This document shows, piece by piece, positions 1-37,043 of a DNA stretch of 42,726 bases (the first letter of the stretch is position 1; each line of letters opens with the position of its first letter). Under the pieces are notes generated by a model. The model saw only the letters and a program-made list of their open reading frames with translations. It had not been told where the DNA came from and made no database searches. The position numbers and the translations under genes are program-made. The DNA is from a virus, in the IMG/VR virus record IMGVR_UViG_3300022723_000049, positions 1 through 42,726 of that record. One strand, 5' to 3'.

Positions 1-139
1 CTGGGTTGACCTGGGGCAGCCGCGCCTGTTCGAACGGGGTAGCCTCGGCATCCTCGAAGTCCGGCTTCGGTCGGATGAGCTCACCGACCACGAAGAAGAC
101 GGCGGCGATGGCCAGCTGTGCTAGAAAGTTGAACGGCAT
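1..139 (-). CDS. Phage tail protein, N-terminal fragment with membrane-like segment
   Basis: Only the first 46 codons are inside the window. The N-terminus is hydrophobic (residues 4-22, NFLAQLAIAAVFFVVGELI) and is followed by RPKPDFEDA. In phages with phiJL001 Gp84-like tail genes, the gene after that one often starts with a hydrophobic segment, then an RPK-type motif, and continues as a tail-tip or hub component. That match is from memory of the family and is not proven here. Its ATG overlaps the TAA of the preceding gene by one base (TAATG), so the two are translationally coupled. The rest of the gene lies beyond the left edge. Confidence 0.6.
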   Translation of the reverse strand, partial: MPFNFLAQLAIAAVFFVVGELIRPKPDFEDAEATPFEQARLPQVNP

Positions 140-999
140 TAGAGGGCGTCGCCTCCCTTCGTAAAGAGGTTCAGCGGCGGGGTGAAGGGGGAGGCGCCGT
201 AGTTTTCCACGTTCGTGCCTGACGCCTCGGCCGCGTTCGGAAAGGCTTGGCAGTCAGTCAGGTTGTGCTCGCAGCCCTCGATGACCTCCACGGTATCACC
301 TACTTGAATCTCAGGTGCGGGGTACTGTAGCACAAAGGTGTCAGGGGCGGTGTAGCCCACAATCAGGCGGGTGGCCAGGGTCCCCTGCTTACGAAACTCA
401 CCGGCGTTGAAGCGCACCGTAGGCGAAGGGACACCTGAAACGGTATAGGTCACCCCGTCCGCCGCCACGGCGCTGACCGTGCCGACCGACGTAAAGTCAG
501 CGGCCTCCAACCGGCACTCACTGTCGTAAAGCTCGTGGTTGCACTGCGTACCCCAGGTCTTTCGTGGCCCCTGAAGCGTAAACAGGGCCCCGAGGCTTTG
601 GCACTTGAACTCAGTGACCAAGCCACCGTTGTCGTAGTTGGCCGACACCACAAAGCCGACGTAGAACAGCTGAAACTCACTATCCGGGTCCCCTTGATGG
701 GTCTTCCACATGCGCACCCTGGTGTCCCCCGCCTCCGGGGCACGGGGCACGAACAGCAGGGTCAGGGCCTGAGTCGTGGGGTGGTTAGTAGGCAGCCGCA
801 GCTCGACCTCCGCCCCTGGCTCGTCCTGGTTGACCGTGGGCTGAGTGCGGTCGGCCGGCACTGGTTGGAACGTCTGGCCAGAAAACGAGATGGCCCGCTC
901 TGAGTTCGTAAAGCGAAACGTGGTGTTGCCCACGACTACCTCGTACAACTCAACGGGCCGCGCTGACTGGATTGACTCCTCTTGCGACTCGAATGTCAT
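139..999 (-). CDS. Tail-tip protein of the DUF2163 / phiJL001 Gp84 family
   Basis: This 286-residue protein has the two-part layout of the phiJL001 Gp84 family. The N-terminal half begins around ELYEVVVGNTTFRFTNSERA, and the C-terminal half carries the BR0599-type signature: GCEHNLTDC near residue 240, then the NVENYGASPFTPPLN stretch close to the end. These proteins sit at the distal tail end in siphophages and gene transfer agents and help build the tip. Cysteines in RKTWGTQCNHELYDSECRLE and GCEHNLTDC could bind a metal or form bonds. The start overlaps the upstream gene by four bases (ATGA). The length is usual for the family, and no other role is suggested. Confidence 0.85.
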   Translation of the reverse strand: MTFESQEESIQSARPVELYEVVVGNTTFRFTNSERAISFSGQTFQPVPADRTQPTVNQDEPGAEVELRLPTNHPTTQALTLLFVPRAPEAGDTRVRMWKTHQGDPDSEFQLFYVGFVVSANYDNGGLVTEFKCQSLGALFTLQGPRKTWGTQCNHELYDSECRLEAADFTSVGTVSAVAADGVTYTVSGVPSPTVRFNAGEFRKQGTLATRLIVGYTAPDTFVLQYPAPEIQVGDTVEVIEGCEHNLTDCQAFPNAAEASGTNVENYGASPFTPPLNLFTKGGDAL

Positions 1000-2738
1000 G
1001 CCTTGATCTCACGAATAGTGAAGCGCAGAAACCCGTTGAAGTCCCACTCGTGGACGAACTCAAGCTCATCAATGTCCAACCGATACCTCAGCAAGTAGCT
1101 TACCTGAACCACGTTTGCTGCTGACCACTCCTGGCTGATGCCAGCGTTTAGTACCAGCTCCTCAAGGCCAGAGGCCACGACGGCACCGGTGATCTCGCGC
1201 CGGTCGACGGTACCATCGGCGTACTGGACCTCGATGTGCCGCCGCGCCCCGCCAGGGAACACCGACTCCGCGTAGTTGTTGAGCACGGCATTGACCGTGG
1301 TGCTGCCCGCTGCTGCCACCCCAGAGGGGGTGAAGTCAGCGCGCCTGGTAGCGGACCAGAACCGACGCTGACGCCCCCGCCTGGCTCCCATGAACCCGCG
1401 AAGGCGGTTGAACTCAGCGCGGTTAGTGAACTCGGCAAGGTGGATGGTGCCCGCCACGTCAGGAAAGTCGCGAATCGTTTCTTGGAACTGCGCACCGGTG
1501 TTGCTGAGCCCCAGGTCCTTCAGTCCGTGCTCGTAGGTGCGGTCGTAGGTCTGACGGGCCAACAGCAGCTGGTCCTCGTAGACTGGGTCACCCTGGTAGG
1601 TCGTGAACCCACCTTGGTCTCCTGGGTCGTGGTTCTCGAGCACGTTGAACAGGAGGCTGACCTCCGCCGCGTTGACCGCCCAGAGCCGCTGTGGGTAGTT
1701 GCCCTGCACCCGCGCCAGCTTGATGGGCATGACCTCAGTAGTGTCGGGGTCCCACTGGTTGACCAGCGGCTGCTCTACATCGATGGTCGTGCTGGTCAGC
1801 CCAGTGACCAGACCCACCTCAAAGGCCTCGGTGCCGCGGTCCCGCAGCACGACGTTCTGACCAACAAAAAACTCGCGGTCGTCAGTGGACGTCACGTTCA
1901 ACGTGGTGGCCCCGGCCGACGCGGATGCGGTCAACAACACGAAGTCACGCCACAGCGGCAGCCCGAAGACCGACCCGGTCCGTCCGTAGAGCAGGTTCTC
2001 CAGTCGTCGGTTCCGGGCCTCGTCCCCAAACAGGAAGGTGTGCGCCAGCTGCTGACGGGGCAAGTCGCGGCTTGCGTTGCGCTGCTCGGTGCCGTCCGCG
2101 TGCTTGATTAGGTCCGTCTGCCACCCCCACCGCTCCCGCAGTGACTCCTGTGGCTGGAAGTTAAACACAATGACCCGCTGACCGGTGATGTCGTGGGCGA
2201 GGGCGAAGCCACCCGAGAACTGGAACTCGTACGCGGTGTCGATGTTCGGCGGCCCCGCGATGCTGATGATGTACGTGTACGGCTCCGTCTCCCCGAGGCC
2301 TAAGGTGTAAGGGACCCCGGTCAGCCCAACCGTGATGTTTATTCCCTCCGCCGATAGGTCGGAGATGCTGAGCACCTGGCGAATATCCAGGAACCGCGTC
2401 CCGGCGTTATAGACCTCAAACTCCGCCTGCGTGTCTGACAGGACATTGCCTGCCTGAAAGCGGCGCGGGATGATGTGCAGGCGGTCCCGCCAGAACAGCT
2501 CATAAAAGCCGCCCAGGCGAATGCCTAGGTTGTCGTACCCTGTCTCCGCTGGCTGTGTGCTGACCCGCGATGCCGCCGCGATGTCACCGCCTCCGTTGCC
2601 ACGGCGCTCCAGTCGTTCCTGCTCCTCAAAGCCCGGCACGGGGGTCTCGAACGTCGGCGGCACCGTGCCGTCACGAAGGAAGTACTTCTGGTTGCTGGCC
2701 TCAGGGGTGTCCAGCCGGATGCCGATGGTGTCTGCCAC
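996..2738 (-). CDS. Large tail-tip/baseplate protein (phiJL001-like tail module)
   Basis: A 580-residue virion protein lying between a 369-residue tail protein and the Gp84-like tip protein. Two stretches recall the DUF2460/distal-tail fold: around residues 235-270 (RLENLLYGRTGSVFGLPLW), and near residue 470 (GARRGRQRRFWSATRR). The latter resembles the arginine-rich end segment of such proteins. Between them is a small beta-rich insertion beginning TASASAGATTLNVTSTDD. The likely role is the distal tail ring or baseplate. The start codon is GTG directly after the TAA of the upstream gene. The specific function is inferred from position and partial motifs. Confidence 0.7.
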   Translation of the reverse strand: MADTIGIRLDTPEASNQKYFLRDGTVPPTFETPVPGFEEQERLERRGNGGGDIAAASRVSTQPAETGYDNLGIRLGGFYELFWRDRLHIIPRRFQAGNVLSDTQAEFEVYNAGTRFLDIRQVLSISDLSAEGINITVGLTGVPYTLGLGETEPYTYIISIAGPPNIDTAYEFQFSGGFALAHDITGQRVIVFNFQPQESLRERWGWQTDLIKHADGTEQRNASRDLPRQQLAHTFLFGDEARNRRLENLLYGRTGSVFGLPLWRDFVLLTASASAGATTLNVTSTDDREFFVGQNVVLRDRGTEAFEVGLVTGLTSTTIDVEQPLVNQWDPDTTEVMPIKLARVQGNYPQRLWAVNAAEVSLLFNVLENHDPGDQGGFTTYQGDPVYEDQLLLARQTYDRTYEHGLKDLGLSNTGAQFQETIRDFPDVAGTIHLAEFTNRAEFNRLRGFMGARRGRQRRFWSATRRADFTPSGVAAAGSTTVNAVLNNYAESVFPGGARRHIEVQYADGTVDRREITGAVVASGLEELVLNAGISQEWSAANVVQVSYLLRYRLDIDELEFVHEWDFNGFLRFTIREIKA

Positions 2739-3848
2739 TTAGGTCACCACAAGGTCTGGGTTCCGGATAAGAAAGCCCCACTTCTCAGACGAGTCCTGGC
2801 CCTCACCAGTCTTGGTGTGGTAGGGCACCACCATGAACTTCTCACCGAACTGGTCCTGGAAGACAGAGTAGGCGTCCACCGAGCTGATCTCCGCTAGAAA
2901 GACATCGGGGATGATCGCCATGGGGGCGTGCCCTTCGTACCCTGGCGACGTGCCGGTGCTCTCTCCAAGGGGGCCATAGAGCAGCTGGGGCCAGCGCTGC
3001 GAAACTAACGAAAAGCCAGACGGTGAGTACCCAATGAGAAAGGCCAATGTACCACCAGGGTGCAGCGTGGCAATGGGCCAGCCCGGTGAGCTGTCTGATC
3101 CACCACCTAACGTCATCCAACCGTTGTTGGCCTGTGTCGCCAGGTTAGCAAGGCTGATGCCCTGCCAGTCCTCTGACCACACTCCGCCCGGGTAGCGGGA
3201 TGAAATAAATGTTTCTAGAATCGTTGAAAGGGTGCCGACACCAAACAGCTGAGTTGAACTATCAACGCTCTCAGAAGGCTCCCAATGCGTCGTCAGCTCA
3301 AACATCCCGCCAGTGAACGGCACGAGCTTCACGACCTCGCCGAAGCCGAAGGAGCGGAAGAATCCAGTCTCTACTTCAATCACAACATAGAAGTAGAGCG
3401 GTGCCGTGGGGCTGGCAGAGTCCGAGTCGGGGCTGGTGATGAGGCGGCCCCGGACGTACGGGCTGCCCTGAGTAAAGCGGTTCATGCGGCAAGGAAACGT
3501 CGAGGCCGTCGAGGCGTTGACCTCCTTCGTGTGCACCCCGTCGATGTCGTCCCAGGCGTTGGCCCCAGCATTAGATGCCGTAGCCCAGTCCAGGTACGTC
3601 ATGGCGTGCTCGAAGGTGCCACCCGTCTCTGACGACCCGAACTTCCTCATCCCAAAGACCAGGCCCCGGTCCCCGTGAAACGTGTCGGCGGCGTCCCGCT
3701 CTATCCACACCTCCTTGTCGTTGGCGCCGATCGTGCCGGTATTGCGCCGCTCAGTAAAGTGGTGGTTCGTCACCAGCTCGTTGCGCAGCCAGTCGATGAC
3801 ATCGGACTCGTTGTCAAGGCTCGTGCTGGGGATGTCGATAACGGGCAC
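2739..3848 (-). CDS. Virion tail protein, function unknown
   Basis: A 369-residue protein in the tail operon, between the 757-residue repeat protein and the large tip protein. It starts MPVIDIPSTSLDNESDVIDW and has no signal peptide or membrane segment. The sequence is rich in beta-type residues, with aromatic and glycine patches such as GGGSDSSPGWPIATLHPGG, as expected of a structural tail or fibre component. I recognise no catalytic motif. Position argues for a tail-tip or adhesion-device component. Confidence 0.65.
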   Translation of the reverse strand: MPVIDIPSTSLDNESDVIDWLRNELVTNHHFTERRNTGTIGANDKEVWIERDAADTFHGDRGLVFGMRKFGSSETGGTFEHAMTYLDWATASNAGANAWDDIDGVHTKEVNASTASTFPCRMNRFTQGSPYVRGRLITSPDSDSASPTAPLYFYVVIEVETGFFRSFGFGEVVKLVPFTGGMFELTTHWEPSESVDSSTQLFGVGTLSTILETFISSRYPGGVWSEDWQGISLANLATQANNGWMTLGGGSDSSPGWPIATLHPGGTLAFLIGYSPSGFSLVSQRWPQLLYGPLGESTGTSPGYEGHAPMAIIPDVFLAEISSVDAYSVFQDQFGEKFMVVPYHTKTGEGQDSSEKWGFLIRNPDLVVT

Positions 3849-24535: not shown

Positions 24536-26170
24536 CTATTCGATGATCGTGGGACCGAAGATCTTGCCGGTATTGCCCTTCTTCAAGAGATTGGCGTACG
24601 CTCGGCTTGTGGCGTCTGTCTGGTCCTTGAACTGGCCATTGGGGAACACGCACAGCTCGGTGATGAAGGCATCATTCCACGGAGCGCGCACCAAGTACAT
24701 ATTGCCTGCCTCGGCCTGAGCGGAGACCGGGGTGGCCCTTGTGACCTTGTCCCCTGACTCTGGGCTGAACCTGACTGTCCAGCCGTGCAGCCAAGCAGCA
24801 AGGTCTGCCTTCTGCGCCTTGCCTGCCTGGCCTGGGTCTTGTGGAATATCAACCTCAACCGGCTTGCCATCCGCCTCGGCACAGGTCTTGATGAGCTGCT
24901 TCACGCCATGGGCAAGCTTGCGCTCACGCACCGCATCCAAGATGATGAACCGACCGTGCTGGTCGATGATAGCCTTGACGCCGGCGGTATAGGCGGCGGT
25001 CTGACCATCTGAAGCAGCGAGGTCCCAGCCGCGGCACACCTTGCCACGCAGGTCCTTGACCTCCGACGCGTCGATGAACTTGAAGTCGTCGCGGTTGAAC
25101 ATACCACCACCGCGCGGGATAGGCGACTGCTGGAGCTGACCCGCCTCGGCGTAGCCACCGCCCCACGCACGCAGGGAGGGCTTCAGGTCCTTTTCGAGGT
25201 AGCGCTCGCTGAAGCGCTCCGGCCAGAGGAGCTGCCCTTCCTCCTCCCGCCAGTCGCCGGGGTACATGGCGTCGTGCTTGAGCTCCTGCACGTCGAACAT
25301 CGGGTCCCCGTCCGGGGTGCGGGGCAGGTGCTCTTCCTTCTGCCAGAGCCGCTCCCTTGGGTTGAACACAACCTCCACTTTCTTCTGCTCCTCAGGTGGA
25401 CCCATGTACTGGAGTGGCACGCGGATATAGCACTTGCGCCGCGCCTCGTACTCCATGGGCAGCATGAGATGCTCGTAGCCGAGCTCGTTAGCGAGGATCA
25501 GGCCGGAGACGTCCCGCTCGTGCACCCGCTGCATGATTACCACAAAAGCGGCGGTCTCAGCGTCGTTGACTCGGGTGGGCATCGTCTCTGTGAACCAGGC
25601 GAGCGACTCCTCCCGCTTGGCCTCCGACTCGCCGTCCTTTACGTTGTGCGGGTCGTCCACAATGACCCGGTCCCCTCGCTCACCGGTGCCGAGGCCGCGC
25701 ACCGAGGTGGCGATCTTGAAGCCACGCTTGTCGGTCTCGAACTTGGTCTTGGCGTTCTGGTCGCCGACGAGGTTGAAACGCTGCCCCCACCTGGACTGGT
25801 ACTCCTCGGAGTTGATGACGAGGCGGGTGCGGCGGTTGTCCCTCACCGTCAGGGCGTCGGAGTAGGAGGCGCAGACGTATCGGTAGTCGGGGCGGTTGTA
25901 CGGGCCCCACTCCCACGCCGGCCAGAGCACACAGGTGGTCAGCGACTTCATGCAGCCAGGCGGCACGTTGATCAGCAGCTTTCGCAGGTGCCCTTCGGTC
26001 ACGGCCTGGAGGTGGTCACAGATAGCGTCGACGGCGTAGCCAGACACGAACTTGCGGCCTGGCTCGAGCACGGGCCAGACTACTGGGATGAAGGCACGCA
26101 GGCTGTTTTCCGCCTCGAGGGTGTCCTCGTTGAGCTTGGCCCACTGGATTGCTTCGGCGAGCGCGTTCAC
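24536..26170 (-). CDS. terL: Terminase large subunit
   Basis: A 544-residue ATPase-nuclease that packages phage DNA. The ATPase part has a Walker A variant PPGCMKS (residues 70-76), the Walker B strand VIVDDPH (169-175) and a coupling motif near VIMQRVHERDVSG. The RNase H-like nuclease begins with RGWDLAASDG (aspartate about 383), continues with FIILDAVRERKL, and has the DPGQAGKAQ loop (about 445-453) of gene-transfer-agent type terminases. It starts at GTG with no clear ribosome site and is the first gene behind the late promoter at 26209-26239. The small subunit candidate lies about 8 kb away. Confidence 0.95.
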   Translation of the reverse strand: MNALAEAIQWAKLNEDTLEAENSLRAFIPVVWPVLEPGRKFVSGYAVDAICDHLQAVTEGHLRKLLINVPPGCMKSLTTCVLWPAWEWGPYNRPDYRYVCASYSDALTVRDNRRTRLVINSEEYQSRWGQRFNLVGDQNAKTKFETDKRGFKIATSVRGLGTGERGDRVIVDDPHNVKDGESEAKREESLAWFTETMPTRVNDAETAAFVVIMQRVHERDVSGLILANELGYEHLMLPMEYEARRKCYIRVPLQYMGPPEEQKKVEVVFNPRERLWQKEEHLPRTPDGDPMFDVQELKHDAMYPGDWREEEGQLLWPERFSERYLEKDLKPSLRAWGGGYAEAGQLQQSPIPRGGGMFNRDDFKFIDASEVKDLRGKVCRGWDLAASDGQTAAYTAGVKAIIDQHGRFIILDAVRERKLAHGVKQLIKTCAEADGKPVEVDIPQDPGQAGKAQKADLAAWLHGWTVRFSPESGDKVTRATPVSAQAEAGNMYLVRAPWNDAFITELCVFPNGQFKDQTDATSRAYANLLKKGNTGKIFGPTIIE

Positions 26171-26191
26171 TGTGCTTAGTCACTGAGTCGC

Positions 26192-26215
26192 TAGGATCGT
26201 GGACTCACGATCCTA
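26192..26215. promoter_or_regulatory. Perfect 10-bp dyad over the late promoter -10 (operator candidate)
   Basis: TAGGATCGTG and CACGATCCTA are perfect inverted copies separated by four bases. One arm contains the TAGGAT of the late promoter and the other covers the first transcribed bases. It could be a regulator binding site or an RNA hairpin at the 5' end of the terminase message. The second late element has only one half-site. Confidence 0.6.
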
Positions 26216-26239
26216 CTTCAAAGGCGTGGTCAGTGAAAC
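26209..26239 (-). promoter_or_regulatory. Late promoter-like element, copy 1 (before terminase)
   Basis: Minus strand GTTTCACT, 15 bases, GTAGGATC. As a promoter it is TTTCAC, 17 bases, TAGGAT, with the start near 26203, about 33 bases before the terminase GTG. It matches the element at 17010-17040 in both octamers and in spacing, while the spacer itself differs. This argues for a shared, specific regulator or polymerase contact. Confidence 0.7.
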
Positions 26240-26296
26240 AGTTAAATTTTTGTGAATATAACTATCATCAGTTTAATAAAACGGCACAATTTTAAG

Positions 26297-26325
26297 TGTA
26301 CTGAGTCAGCGAACTGAGATACGAT
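26297..26325 (+). promoter_or_regulatory. Early promoter P0
   Basis: TGTACT (26297-26302), a 17-base spacer and TACGAT (26320-26325). The upstream CAATTTTAAGTGTACT matches the CAATTTTAAGGTGTACA of the cassette promoters further right. It should drive the gene at 26358. Confidence 0.6.
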
Positions 26326-26357
26326 GCGAACCATCATCTACACATGAGAGGAACGAG

Positions 26358-29259: not shown

Positions 29260-29694
29260 ATGAGCACGATCAAAGAACTGCTGCAAGCGCTGAACAACGT
29301 ACGCGCACGCAAGGGTGAACAGCCGCTGAAAAGCTGGAAGCAGTCTGCTGCTAAGCTCGAAGAGCGGCTGCGCAAGGAGCGGCACGACATCGTGGCTGGG
29401 TCCGCCCAGACGGCGATCAACGAGGAGGCTGACACGCCTGTTGGTCAGGCCGCTGACGTCAAGTCGCTCGAGCAGACCCCTGAGCCCAAGGTGCGTAAGT
29501 CCAAGGACGGCGGACCGTCGATCGCGGAGGTGGTGCGCCCTTTGCTGCTGACCACGGAGATGACCAACCGGGAAATCTTCGACCACATCCAGGACAAGCA
29601 TCCTGGGCTGCTGGACGAGAAGCGCAAGTGGTACACCGCTTGGTACCGTGGCGACCTGCGTCGGAAGGGCAAGCTGCCGCCGAAGGACGCGTAA
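29260..29694 (+). CDS. Putative DNA-binding early protein with C-terminal winged-helix-like domain
   Basis: A 144-residue protein behind GAGAGGAACGAG. The N-terminal half is basic and helical (KELLQALNNVRARKGEQPLK, SWKQSAAKLEERLRKER), followed by a linker. The C-terminal 55 residues (PSIAEVVRPLLLTTEMTNRE, IFDHIQDKHPG, WYTAWYRGDLRRKGKLP) look like a small winged-helix module of the kind that begins 'R.LL.....T..EI...I' and ends in a basic wing. It sits directly upstream of the DnaA-like gene, suggesting a replication or regulatory role. Confidence 0.55.
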   Translation: MSTIKELLQALNNVRARKGEQPLKSWKQSAAKLEERLRKERHDIVAGSAQTAINEEADTPVGQAADVKSLEQTPEPKVRKSKDGGPSIAEVVRPLLLTTEMTNREIFDHIQDKHPGLLDEKRKWYTAWYRGDLRRKGKLPPKDA

Positions 29695-29696
29695 GG

Positions 29697-30014
29697 ATGT
29701 TTCGTCCCTGCGACCCTGGGCCGATCCTTGAGGCCTTGGCCGATGAACTCAACGTCTCGGTCGAGGAACTCAAGGGTCCGTCCAGGCAGCAGGCCATCTC
29801 AAACTCACGGGCCGTTGTCCACTGGACATTTCGCCAGCTCGGCTTCAGCCTCCATGAGATTGGCAACATGCTGCACAAGGAACACTCAAGCGTGGCACAT
29901 GCACTCAAGAAGGTGAACAGGCTGCGAGAAGAAAGCGCACTCTGGCACGGAAACAGCAGTGCTTGCCTAGCCATCGCGAAGAAGATCATCGAACAGGAGA
30001 ACAGCCATGACTGA
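29697..30014 (+). CDS. Stand-alone DnaA domain IV-like protein
   Basis: A 105-residue protein whose core matches the DNA-binding C-terminal domain of the initiator DnaA: ILEALADELNVSVEELKGPS, the R-A-V-V-H-W helix, LGFSLHEIGNMLHKEHSSVA and HALKKVNRL. The HSSVAHAL segment corresponds to the DHSTV.HA box that reads DnaA boxes. The AAA+ ATPase part is absent. It could recruit or compete with host DnaA, mark a phage origin, or act as a transcription factor. The start is the ATG at 29697. Confidence 0.8.
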   Translation: MFRPCDPGPILEALADELNVSVEELKGPSRQQAISNSRAVVHWTFRQLGFSLHEIGNMLHKEHSSVAHALKKVNRLREESALWHGNSSACLAIAKKIIEQENSHD

Positions 30015-30102: not shown

Positions 30103-30341
30103 TGAACACCCTCATCGCCGTCAGCGGCACCGCTGCCATCCTCTTGGCCTTCTCCATCCTGATCTACGAGGCTGAGGGCTCTGAACCACGTCAGTGCAAC
30201 AAGACCGTAGTCGAGATAGCACCAAGCAACCTGGTCAACGACTGCGAGTTCAGCAACTGCGAATTTATCCACATCGATGAGTACCGGCGACGCGTGAAGC
30301 GGCACCTGCTGGACCATCAATTCGAAGGAGTGAAGCCATGA
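30102..30341 (+). CDS. Small protein with N-terminal membrane helix
   Basis: A 79-residue protein. The N-terminal hydrophobic helix (LIAVSGTAAILLAFSILIYE) is followed by a soluble part containing three cysteines (RQCNKTVVEI, DCEFSNCEF) and a basic C-terminal segment. It could face the periplasm with disulfides. Stop and start overlap its neighbours. No family is recognised. Confidence 0.6.
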   Translation: MNTLIAVSGTAAILLAFSILIYEAEGSEPRQCNKTVVEIAPSNLVNDCEFSNCEFIHIDEYRRRVKRHLLDHQFEGVKP

Positions 30342-33835: not shown

Positions 33836-34531
33836 TCACTCCTTTTGTGAGTTAGTTTCGTCGTGCTCAATCAGCTCCCCCTCGAGCACCTGGGGGCTTG
33901 GGTCTTCCTTCTGGCGCTCGAGCCTCACAATCTGCAGCAGGAGGCGCTTCTGTTCAGGGGTCATGTTGTCCAGGGGCTGCTCACCCTCGACGAAGTTCAC
34001 CGACTGGTGGCGGGCATCAACACTGACCGAAGGCGGCTTGTCCTTGAGCTCAGGGTCTGCTTTCTTCATCAACATCTGCAGGATGCTTGAGTCGTACTTG
34101 TGCTCCCTGGCCATGAGCACCCCGTTCCGGTCGTACTTCTCGTCGATCCAGCCGTTGACGGCCCGGTCGTAGCCGGTGTCCAGCACCTTCTCGTTGAAGA
34201 CGGTGAGGGCCTTGACGCAGGCCGCCTGGAACTCAGGGTCGTAGTGCCTGGTCGGGTCCAGGTCAAAGGCCTCAGCAATCTTGGGATCAGTCCACAGGTA
34301 GTACGTGGTGCGGCTGAGTTCGGCGAACTCAGCCGCCTTGCGGATGGTGCCGTAGTTCGTCAGGCCCTGGAGGAACAGCCGCTTCTTCTCCTGGTTCACC
34401 AGCTCCTTGGTGCTGGGCGCCTCGATCAACGGCTTCCGCTTCGGCGGCGCCTTGGCCTTAGTCGCCTTGGCCTTGGGACGTGGCTTCCTAGTAGCCTTGG
34501 CCTTTGGTTGTGTCTTTTTGCTCGTTGCCAC
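33836..34531 (-). CDS. Terminase small subunit-like protein with lysine/alanine-rich N-terminal tail
   Basis: I prefer GTG at 34531, behind GAAGGG; a TTG at 34564 would add eleven residues. The N-terminal 35 residues are histone H1-like (KKTQPKAKATRKPRPKAKAT, KAKAPPKRKP). Residues from about 50 form a small-terminase helix-turn-helix: LFLQGLTNYGTIRKAAEFAE, LSRTTYYLWTDPKIAEAF. The rest is helical and acidic at the end. Small terminases bind the packaging site and feed DNA to the large subunit. It is far from the large terminase, so a general DNA-binding role is the alternative. Confidence 0.65.
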   Translation of the reverse strand: MATSKKTQPKAKATRKPRPKAKATKAKAPPKRKPLIEAPSTKELVNQEKKRLFLQGLTNYGTIRKAAEFAELSRTTYYLWTDPKIAEAFDLDPTRHYDPEFQAACVKALTVFNEKVLDTGYDRAVNGWIDEKYDRNGVLMAREHKYDSSILQMLMKKADPELKDKPPSVSVDARHQSVNFVEGEQPLDNMTPEQKRLLLQIVRLERQKEDPSPQVLEGELIEHDETNSQKE

Positions 34532-34586
34532 TTTGCCCTTCGTGCGCCCGTGAAGATTGTTCAATTAACGTTGTGCCGGCCTGCTG

Positions 34587-34615
34587 ATCTTAGCCCAGAG
34601 GGACCTACGTGTAAA
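34587..34615 (-). promoter_or_regulatory. Promoter for the small-terminase-like gene
   Basis: Minus strand TTTACA, a 17-base spacer and TAAGAT, with GCAA directly upstream. The start would be near 34580, just before the TTG/GTG starts of the downstream gene. Confidence 0.6.
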
Positions 34616-34712
34616 ATTGCGTCGTGCTCTGTGGGGCCGCACCAGGCGAAAAGTCGTGCCTCGGATACTGCCTCACCTATGGAATCATGTAAGTTATTGA
34701 AATCCTTATCAA

Positions 34713-34737
34713 TGCCTCTTATGCCTCTCTTGCCTCT
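34713..34737 (+). repeat. Tandem TGCCTCT repeats (iteron-like)
   Basis: TGCCTCT occurs at 34713, 34722 and 34731, a strict 9-base period. Related inverted units occur about 90 bases to the right. Confidence 0.7.
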
Positions 34738-34845
34738 CAATTCTGTATAGGATGAGAAGAAAAGTACTCCAGATGTCCTATTTGGTATTCAGTTCTAGGG
34801 TAAGATAAGGATTTTAGTAGAGGCATGAGGCAAGGGGCAGCCTAA

Positions 34846-36966
34846 CTACTTCTTTTTCTTAGCATTTTCAACTGCCTCAGCAATGGTCTCAACAGAGGCG
34901 AATTTGGCTGCGTAGTGCTTGGCGCATTCAGTTTCTGTGGCCTTGAGCCATTTTTGTGGATTCCTGATCGCCCAGAGGCGCGACTTGCTGAGAGGCACCT
35001 TCGGCCCAAACCGAACTTGGCCCCCGCCGCACACCTGCTTCACCCCCATCCGCTTCAGCTCCATGGTCACGGCCTGATCAGTCACCCTCTGCTCGGTCTC
35101 CGCCTCGTACCAAGTCCTCAGCTGCTTAGTCGTGTAGAGGTCAGAGTCGCAGGTCACGTTCCCGACCTTGATTTCGGTTGAGCCTACGAGGTCCGAGAGC
35201 CAAAGGCCCAAGTTGCTGCGGCTCGAGTTCATCATGTCGAGCTTTGCGTCGGTCGTGGGGGCGTTCGCCTTGGGGTCAAAGCTACTCAGGTCTAGGTGCT
35301 GCAGGTAGTACATGAGATGCTCCACCCCGCCGGCATCCCGCCAGTCAGCCACGGCGTCGTAGAAGCTCTTCTCATGCTGCCCAGGGGTCTCAACGATAAA
35401 GTACCGGCGGTCGTTGTTCTCGAGGAAGAAGGCGTCGGGGTGGTTGGACGTAAAGTAGAAGTTGCAGTGGTTGGGCAGCTCGTAGAGGTTGGCGTTTTTC
35501 CGGTTGATCATGATCATCTGGCCGGTGATCAGGTGCTTCAGCTTGTCCGCCACACGCCTGTGCTCAGCCGACCCGGTACCTGAGATTTCGTCTCCCATGA
35601 TGAACTGCAGGCCGTGCATCCATTCGTTGAACTGGCTGGCAATCTGGTCCTGTCCCACGATCCGGTAGTTCTTCCCGTAGAGCAGCCCCATCAACTCACC
35701 GATCATCGTTTTGCCAGACCCCTGCGGCCCGTAGATGACGCAGGCTTGATTGAGCTTGGCCCCGGGGTGCTGCACGGGGTACGCCAACCACTGCAGGAAC
35801 CACTTGCGGTGCTCAGGGGCACAGTTGCCAAGCACGTAGTCGACCAGGTCTAAGAACGGCTGCACCTTCCCCTTCTTGGGCTCGACGCCCCAGCCTTGCC
35901 ACACGTTCACCTCCTTGATGTAGGGGCTGGTCTGCAGGTACTCGTCTCCCCCTGGTTCGTAGGTCAGGGTGATGACGTCATTGCGGAGCGGCCACTCCAT
36001 CCAGACCTTGGCGATATTGGCGCGCTCGAACTTGAAGTCGTCGCCGCCGGCGTACCGGACCTGATGGTAGTTGACGAAGCTAAAGGCATTGGTGATCGCG
36101 TTGGCCTGGATGATGCCGTCGGTCTTGGTGTCGTAGATGGCGTTGAGGTCGCGGACGTAGCAGTAGCGGTCATTCATCTGGAAGAGCGGCTCGACGGCGC
36201 TCATGGGCTGCGCCTCCTTGAGCAGCTGCTCGAAGGCGTCGGGGCCGACGTTGATCAGGTAGTCGTCCAGCCCCACCTTGTCGAACACGCCCCCCGTCTC
36301 TCGGTCCTTGATCTCCTCAGGGAGCAGGGCAACAAAGACCTTGGCGCCGCGGGCAAAGAGCTGCGCCGCCAAGAAGTTCATCGCGTTGGCCACGTCCTTC
36401 TTGCGGGCCACGTCTGAGTCGTAGACGATGTAGACCTCCCGCTTCCTCCACTCGAAGGCTTCGAGCTGCTCGATCCACTGGATGCCGTGCTGCTTGCTGC
36501 GGAAGGACCACACCCCGCCCAAGGCGATGGTCGGAAACTCGTGCCAGCTGGCCATGGCCGCTTTGAGCTCCCCCTCTGTAATGACGAGGAACTGTCCGGC
36601 GTCCTTGACCTTGCCCGCCCACTCGGTGTCGGGCGGGAAGTACACGGCCGGCTTGGTGCCGTCCTCCTGCGCGTACTTGCAGTCAGGCGGCTCCTGCCCG
36701 AAGGGCATGGTCTTCCAGAGGTAGCGGTAGCGACAGAACACCTTGCCAACCGTCTGGGCCGGGTCGGTCCACGGGTTGCCGTCGTAGTCGTAGTATGGAA
36801 TCTCAATTGCCGCCAGCACGTGGGCCTTGGCGGACTCAGGGACGTAGATGGTGGATGCGTCGTAGATGAGCTTGAGACCGAGCTCCTTGGATCTGGCCTC
36901 GTCGATCCCCCATTTTTCTAGTTGGTCTTTATACGCTGACTGGGCGAGCTTCGCGTCTGTGACCAA
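34846..36966 (-). CDS. Primase-helicase (TOPRIM/DUF3854-like plus SF3 helicase)
   Basis: About 706 residues. No in-frame ATG exists; I chose TTG at 36966, which has GGAG seven bases ahead, while a TTG at 36981 is possible. Residue numbers count from the latter. A TOPRIM-like part holds FLVITEGELKAAMASWHEFP (about 132-151) and VYIVYDSDVARKKD (Asp188/190). The SF3 helicase has Walker A GPQGSGKT (418-425), Walker B LQFIMGDEI (about 458-466) and the C motif FYFTSNHPDAFFLENNDRRY. It primes and unwinds phage DNA. A DUF5906-like helicase is the nearest family. Confidence 0.85.
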   Translation of the reverse strand: MVTDAKLAQSAYKDQLEKWGIDEARSKELGLKLIYDASTIYVPESAKAHVLAAIEIPYYDYDGNPWTDPAQTVGKVFCRYRYLWKTMPFGQEPPDCKYAQEDGTKPAVYFPPDTEWAGKVKDAGQFLVITEGELKAAMASWHEFPTIALGGVWSFRSKQHGIQWIEQLEAFEWRKREVYIVYDSDVARKKDVANAMNFLAAQLFARGAKVFVALLPEEIKDRETGGVFDKVGLDDYLINVGPDAFEQLLKEAQPMSAVEPLFQMNDRYCYVRDLNAIYDTKTDGIIQANAITNAFSFVNYHQVRYAGGDDFKFERANIAKVWMEWPLRNDVITLTYEPGGDEYLQTSPYIKEVNVWQGWGVEPKKGKVQPFLDLVDYVLGNCAPEHRKWFLQWLAYPVQHPGAKLNQACVIYGPQGSGKTMIGELMGLLYGKNYRIVGQDQIASQFNEWMHGLQFIMGDEISGTGSAEHRRVADKLKHLITGQMIMINRKNANLYELPNHCNFYFTSNHPDAFFLENNDRRYFIVETPGQHEKSFYDAVADWRDAGGVEHLMYYLQHLDLSSFDPKANAPTTDAKLDMMNSSRSNLGLWLSDLVGSTEIKVGNVTCDSDLYTTKQLRTWYEAETEQRVTDQAVTMELKRMGVKQVCGGGQVRFGPKVPLSKSRLWAIRNPQKWLKATETECAKHYAAKFASVETIAEAVENAKKKK

Positions 36967-37043
36967 AATACTTCTCCACAAGGGTTCTCAAACCGGGCCC
37001 AGCGTGCTAGAGTCCTTGTCGAGACGATCTTTTGCGGGGTCAT
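36918..37043 (-). CDS. 41-residue leader frame overlapping the helicase start
   Basis: The ATG at 37043 has GAGAGGAACGAG directly ahead, the same ribosome site as the first early gene at 26358. The frame reads MTPQKIVSTRTLARWARFEN, then PCGEVFWSQTR, and ends at 36918, inside the helicase frame. It may couple translation to the TTG start, or be the true N-terminus of the helicase joined by a -1 shift near GTATTTTGG. One inserted T there would fuse the frames. Unresolved. Confidence 0.45.
   Translation of the reverse strand: MTPQKIVSTRTLARWARFENPCGEVFWSQTRSSPSQRIKTN

Follow-up and report, generated by a model that had tools for sequence, protein, structure and literature searches.

The 281-bp gap that separates the stop codon of a primase-helicase gene from the start of the terminase small subunit gene (terS) in a linear virus record is filled by an element in which short repeats and their inverted copies flank an AT-rich core. 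Judging from the sequence, this element is probably a phage replication origin recognized by the adjoining primase-helicase (estimated probability about 0.73), a candidate iteron origin of the SF3-initiator kind, since protein, position and DNA anatomy agree in pointing to such an origin. The window, i.e. the whole stretch of DNA analyzed, is 42,726 nt long. A candidate origin had been proposed at this place in an earlier note, and the proposal is supported by the recurrence of the architecture in relatives, by the placement 3′ of the primase gene in the phages JWX, SC_9 and DoCa6, and by covariation of the element with the primase rather than with TerS. Origins of this kind are already known; the novelty is that the arrangement recurs across a large group of phages while the iteron sequence changes.

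Iterons, AT-rich core and neighboring genes

Both neighbors of the element are encoded on the minus strand. The terS gene (33836-34564; phrog_4044, E 9.7e-13) turns its 5′ end toward the element, and the gene for the 711-aa primase-helicase (34846-36981), the candidate initiator, its 3′ end. The earlier note had missed terS as the left neighbor. Because of terS, the strongest competing reading is a packaging site, which, given the position between these two genes, had to be weighed against an origin. A promoter-like site for terS, TTTACA-17-TAAGAT, lies outside the iteron element at 34587-34615 on the minus strand and is a consensus match only. Searches with the TerS and primase peptides of the window itself found no close relatives. 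As for gene order, terS lies ~7.7 kb from terL (24536-26170) in the window, whereas the two genes are adjacent in nearly all relatives, and the orientation of the primase gene relative to terS is inverted, unlike in nearly all relatives.

On the left of the element, TGCCTCT occurs three times on the plus strand (34713-34719, 34722-34728 and 34731-34737). The core at 34738-34803, a candidate unwinding region to which no strand is assigned, follows directly (66 bp, 36% GC), and beyond it stand TGCCTCT (34819-34825) and TGCCTCA (34826-34832) on the minus strand, which read AGAGGCA and TGAGGCA on the plus strand. The inverted copies that were said to face the left repeats are thus present at 34819 and 34826, and the strict 9-base period claimed for the array is exact for the three left copies but not for the right pair, which is spaced by 7 bp. 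An outlying pair of TGCCTC was found at 34657-34674 on the plus strand (copies at 34657 and 34669), a further copy at 34873 and another, inverted, at 34992. The GC content of 34739-34819 is 33% against ~61% for the whole window, and this segment is the third most AT-rich 80-mer in the contig. GAGGCA/TGCCTC is present in seven copies inside the 281-bp intergenic gap, a number that no hexamer reached in any of 5000 first-order Markov resamples; elsewhere in the contig, windows overlapping the cluster excepted, no hexamer occurs more than 6 times per 281-bp stretch. No hexamer clusters more densely anywhere in the window than GAGGCA with its eight copies over ~380 bp (P = 7.5e-7, corrected for all hexamers). 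The element therefore contains short iterons repeated beyond chance, one of the marks of an SF3-initiator iteron origin.

A perfect 11-nt inverted repeat, AAATCCTTATC/GATAAGGATTT, connects 34700-34710 with 34804-34814, and any such 11-mer pair turned up in 0.6% of resamples. Its longer arms, TATTGAAATCCTTATC on the left (34695-34710) and GATAAGGATTTTAGTA on the right (34804-34819), neither assigned a strand, agree at 88% over 16 nt. The arms are no mirror frame, since the left iterons are inside their arm and the right ones outside theirs. A nested inverted repeat had been thought to enclose the repeat-flanked center; the repeat and the AT-rich core are real, but the right iterons are located outside the right arm. 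The hairpin of the window is modest (z -2.2). Flank complementarity in the window gives a weak P when taken alone (0.05), so that iterons and relatives carry the case.

The primase-helicase showed domain matches to DUF3854, DUF5906 and VapE-like proteins. A structure model built from 50 sequences (mean pLDDT 90) has an SF3-type ATPase and, after it, a small C-terminal domain at residues ~578-690 with the predicted order helix-helix-strand-helix-helix-strand, which we read as winged-helix-like and as a candidate DNA-binding domain. Its Foldseek neighbors include the C-terminal region of NrS-1 polymerase, poxvirus D5/E5 and SaPI5 PriRep1. The score against the P4-family primase model TIGR01613 was 19.9 bits, below the cut-off of 108.7, and instead of an archaeo-eukaryotic primase domain of the pRN1/BIP-1 type the protein carries DUF3854 with TOPRIM-like features. 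At an origin served by this protein, the winged-helix-like C terminus would bind the TGCCTCT units on both sides, and two hexamers might assemble facing each other. The AT-rich core would melt, the SF3 motors would unwind outward to give a bidirectional start, and the TOPRIM-like part or host enzymes could prime both strands.

The arrangement in related and distant phages

Alignment with the primases of AXL3, PW916 and ctUtU524 reached 80 IMG/VR loci, and we compared 83 primase loci, a set that includes near-duplicates. In most loci, terL and terS point leftward and the primase gene rightward, and between them AT content reaches its highest value in the locus, in a stretch flanked by inverted short repeats. 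The element is mostly located ~170 bp before terS (median core-to-terS distance 172 bp) and 340-900 bp from the primase start, and this architecture upstream of the primase operon was seen in PW916, AXL3, ctUtU524 and many IMG/VR loci. Perfect arms of 24 nt surround 95 nt at 26% GC in L008, the 36-nt arms of L013 carry GCTACA twice per side, and in L006 the left side shows three GCTACA spaced by 7 bp and the right side two inverted copies. Four further loci (L053, L063, L066 and L074) are alike, with GCTACA, GTTACA or CGTAAC units. The polarity of the TGCCTCT unit in the window matches that of GCTACA in the relatives, with the GC side outward. Flank complementarity reached P ≤ 0.05 in 24 of the 83 loci, near-duplicates included, against ~4 expected. 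A significant hexamer was obtained in 38 of the 83, a count that overstates iterons because many of these hexamers are GAA-type runs inside the core. As an observation of its own, the element cores of nine loci (L012, L015, L023, L025, L032, L037, L039, L046 and L084) contain 6-9 overlapping AGAAGA units on one strand, a purine/pyrimidine asymmetry.

The exact iteron of the window was present in none of the relatives found, and a search of IMG/VR for the 9-bp-spaced exact TGCCTCT array returned 16 matches, none near this primase and most resembling repetitive coding sequence. Absence of the repeats from relatives had been named beforehand as an observation that would speak against an origin. 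The exact repeat is indeed absent, but relatives keep the arrangement with different repeat sequences, which makes this a weak objection.

An element placed directly downstream of the initiator-helicase gene, a further mark of SF3-initiator iteron origins, was found not only in the window but also in the distant SF3-primase phages JWX, SC_9 and DoCa6. JWX reaches the lowest GC content of its whole 49.7-kb record in a segment that begins ~220 bp past the primase stop and is bordered by TATAGCAGTTA and TAACTGCTAT units. Taken by itself, the iteron hexamer count of JWX is unexceptional, and the case there consists of the GC minimum, its position and the inverted arrangement. SC_9 harbors TGTGTTGGG units at 9-11 bp, beginning ~12 bp past the primase stop, together with 22-nt perfect inverted arms, and its 10 copies of GTTGGG are unequalled elsewhere in the locus. 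In DoCa6, the GC minimum of the 8-kb locus is located 230 bp past the primase stop. No such element was detected at the primase 3′ end of three other SF3-primase phages, RDJL6, S1 and MZH0603. The JWX record (L120) also has an exact 3359-bp terminal repeat (1-3359 and 46356-49714), either a physical end or an assembly choice, whose left end lies ~170 bp past the primase stop and whose right end lies 174 bp before terS.

Packaging, promoter and DnaA readings

The element could be a packaging start (pac or cos) read by TerS, whose gene begins ~130-175 bp away. Such a site belongs beside terS, which indeed adjoins the element on the left; the core-to-terS distance is tight, with 175 bp in the window and the similar median given above for relatives, and the right end annotated for JWX, where TerS is a 30% relative, falls at a comparable distance before terS. 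We consider this reading unlikely nevertheless, as a packaging site should stay and vary with terS. The element of JWX and SC_9 remains beside the primase gene, while terS is found kilobases off (its start 2.2 kb past the primase stop in SC_9) with no such element, and in L020, L042 and L080 leftward genes split the element from terS/terL. The element flanks do not track TerS either. In partial Mantel tests on 24 loci, they correlated with the primase given TerS (r = 0.52, P = 0.001) and not with TerS given the primase (r = -0.01, P = 0.48), TerS being short and aligning poorly; the pattern was the same with TerL instead of TerS (0.32 for the primase vs 0.00 for TerL, 34 loci). Part of this signal is shared descent, because the leader region beside the primase, used as a control, tracks the primase too (0.41). 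A cos site would set a fixed genome end, but the ends of 36 long contigs of relatives are random relative to the element (two within 400 bp), and circular permutation is reported for related Mesyanzhinovviridae (PMC11946847); both points exclude cos more than pac. A core of 7-36% GC, moreover, corresponds to no known requirement of packaging sites.

Even less probable is an operator or promoter whose inverted repeats bind a regulator of terS or, in the relatives, of two divergent operons. The element sits at a divergent-operon junction in most relatives, and AT-rich promoters are common. In the window, however, both neighbors have the same orientation and nothing diverges at the element, the promoter-like site of terS is outside it, and the actual divergent junction at 26.2 kb is devoid of iterons; in JWX and SC_9 the element adjoins the 3′ end of a gene. 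No part of the contig is richer in AT than the divergent junction before terL (26171-26345), which carries operator-like repeats (GTCACTGAGTCGC / ACTGAGTCAGCG) and has the minimum of the cumulative GC skew (25684) near it.

The suggestion that a stand-alone DnaA domain IV protein might act at the element was right about the protein, which is encoded in the window (29628-30014, plus strand; Bac_DnaA_C, E 4.5e-14), but the link between this protein and the element is not supported. A DnaA-type origin opened by it is highly improbable, as the 128-aa protein has no AAA+ domain for melting DNA and the element contains no DnaA box. The sole perfect box of the window, TTATCCACA at 30265-30273, is located ~250 bp downstream of the DnaA domain IV gene, in the small ORF that comes next. 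A tblastn search for the DnaA-like protein in the relatives' loci, which are partial genomes, found no relative.

We dropped GC skew as an origin test. The expected turn of the cumulative skew at the element was not observed in the window, but skew follows gene orientation in this contig, so that a missing turn hardly speaks against an origin. The raw skew minimum of AXL3 (47470) falls inside its element, yet also at an edge of the record as opened, and disappears on detrending, and that of PW916 lies outside the element.

Known SF3 initiators and a possible origin class

The origin reading of the element finds its nearest counterparts in SaPI and SCCmec islands with Rep, PriRep and Cch2 (PMC7581432; PDB 7ola, 7pds), where short iterons are located directly downstream of an initiator-helicase gene; the C-terminal domain of SaPI Rep recognizes iterons directly downstream of rep (PMC7581432). 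Their hexameric helicases have a C-terminal DNA-binding domain, as is predicted here, and the fold matches SaPI5 PriRep1. In contrast, the window belongs to a tailed phage and not to an island, the primase-helicase has a TOPRIM-like DUF3854 front end, the iteron sequence is unrelated, and sequence identity is low (~14%).

Satellite phage P4 has a second site, crr. Its alpha protein likewise unites a TOPRIM-type primase, an SF3 helicase and a C-terminal winged helix that binds ori repeats (PMC4234260), although the window primase stays under the TIGR01613 cut-off. In pRN1 and Bordetella phage BIP-1, the origins are stem-loops directly 3′ of primase-SF3 genes, with a large inverted repeat (in pRN1 a 21-nt stem and a 58-nt loop), and the layout rather than the sequence is conserved (PMC4234260). 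Their primase domain is archaeo-eukaryotic, no iterons are reported for them, and the hairpin of the window is modest by comparison. The SV40 origin and large T antigen also combine an SF3 initiator with inverted short sites beside an AT-rich tract. The window unit and the SV40 origin sites have GAGGC in common, most likely by coincidence, given that GCTACAG, GTTACAG or GTGTTGGG take its place in other members. T antigen differs in using an N-terminal origin-binding domain (PMC7581432).

Tentatively, these elements may constitute a widespread, undescribed class of tailed-phage origins, in which a TOPRIM-like/SF3/winged-helix primase-helicase would read inverted iterons spaced by 6-11 bp around an AT-rich core. 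The iterons would co-evolve with the protein (GCTACAG, GTTACAG, GATACAG, GTGTTGGG or TGCCTCT), the origin could stand 5′ or 3′ of the gene, and a covarying leader RNA that precedes the primase gene in many members might control it. A search by term of the publications on AXL3 (PMC7504290) and the Mesyanzhinovviridae (PMC11946847) turned up no description of a replication origin. A compact pair of origin and initiator with varying iterons allows a direct test of DNA choice by SF3 initiators, and the changing iteron sequences show why sequence similarity misses such origins.

At least 37 relatives (L003 7710-7872, L006 1719-1852, L016 4762-4897, L025 4666-4798, L037 1751-1883 and ~30 more) carry the leader RNA upstream of the primase start; this conserved structured RNA apparently serves the primase operon as its 5′ leader. 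It had no match in Rfam, and a covariance model gave only chance matches in the window (best E 0.06). Its helix of 11-13 bp has arms that change together, with double compensatory changes at all 11 consensus pairs. The loop contains an invariant CCUCAGCA just before the 3′ arm, with which a downstream GCUGAGG could pair as a pseudoknot.
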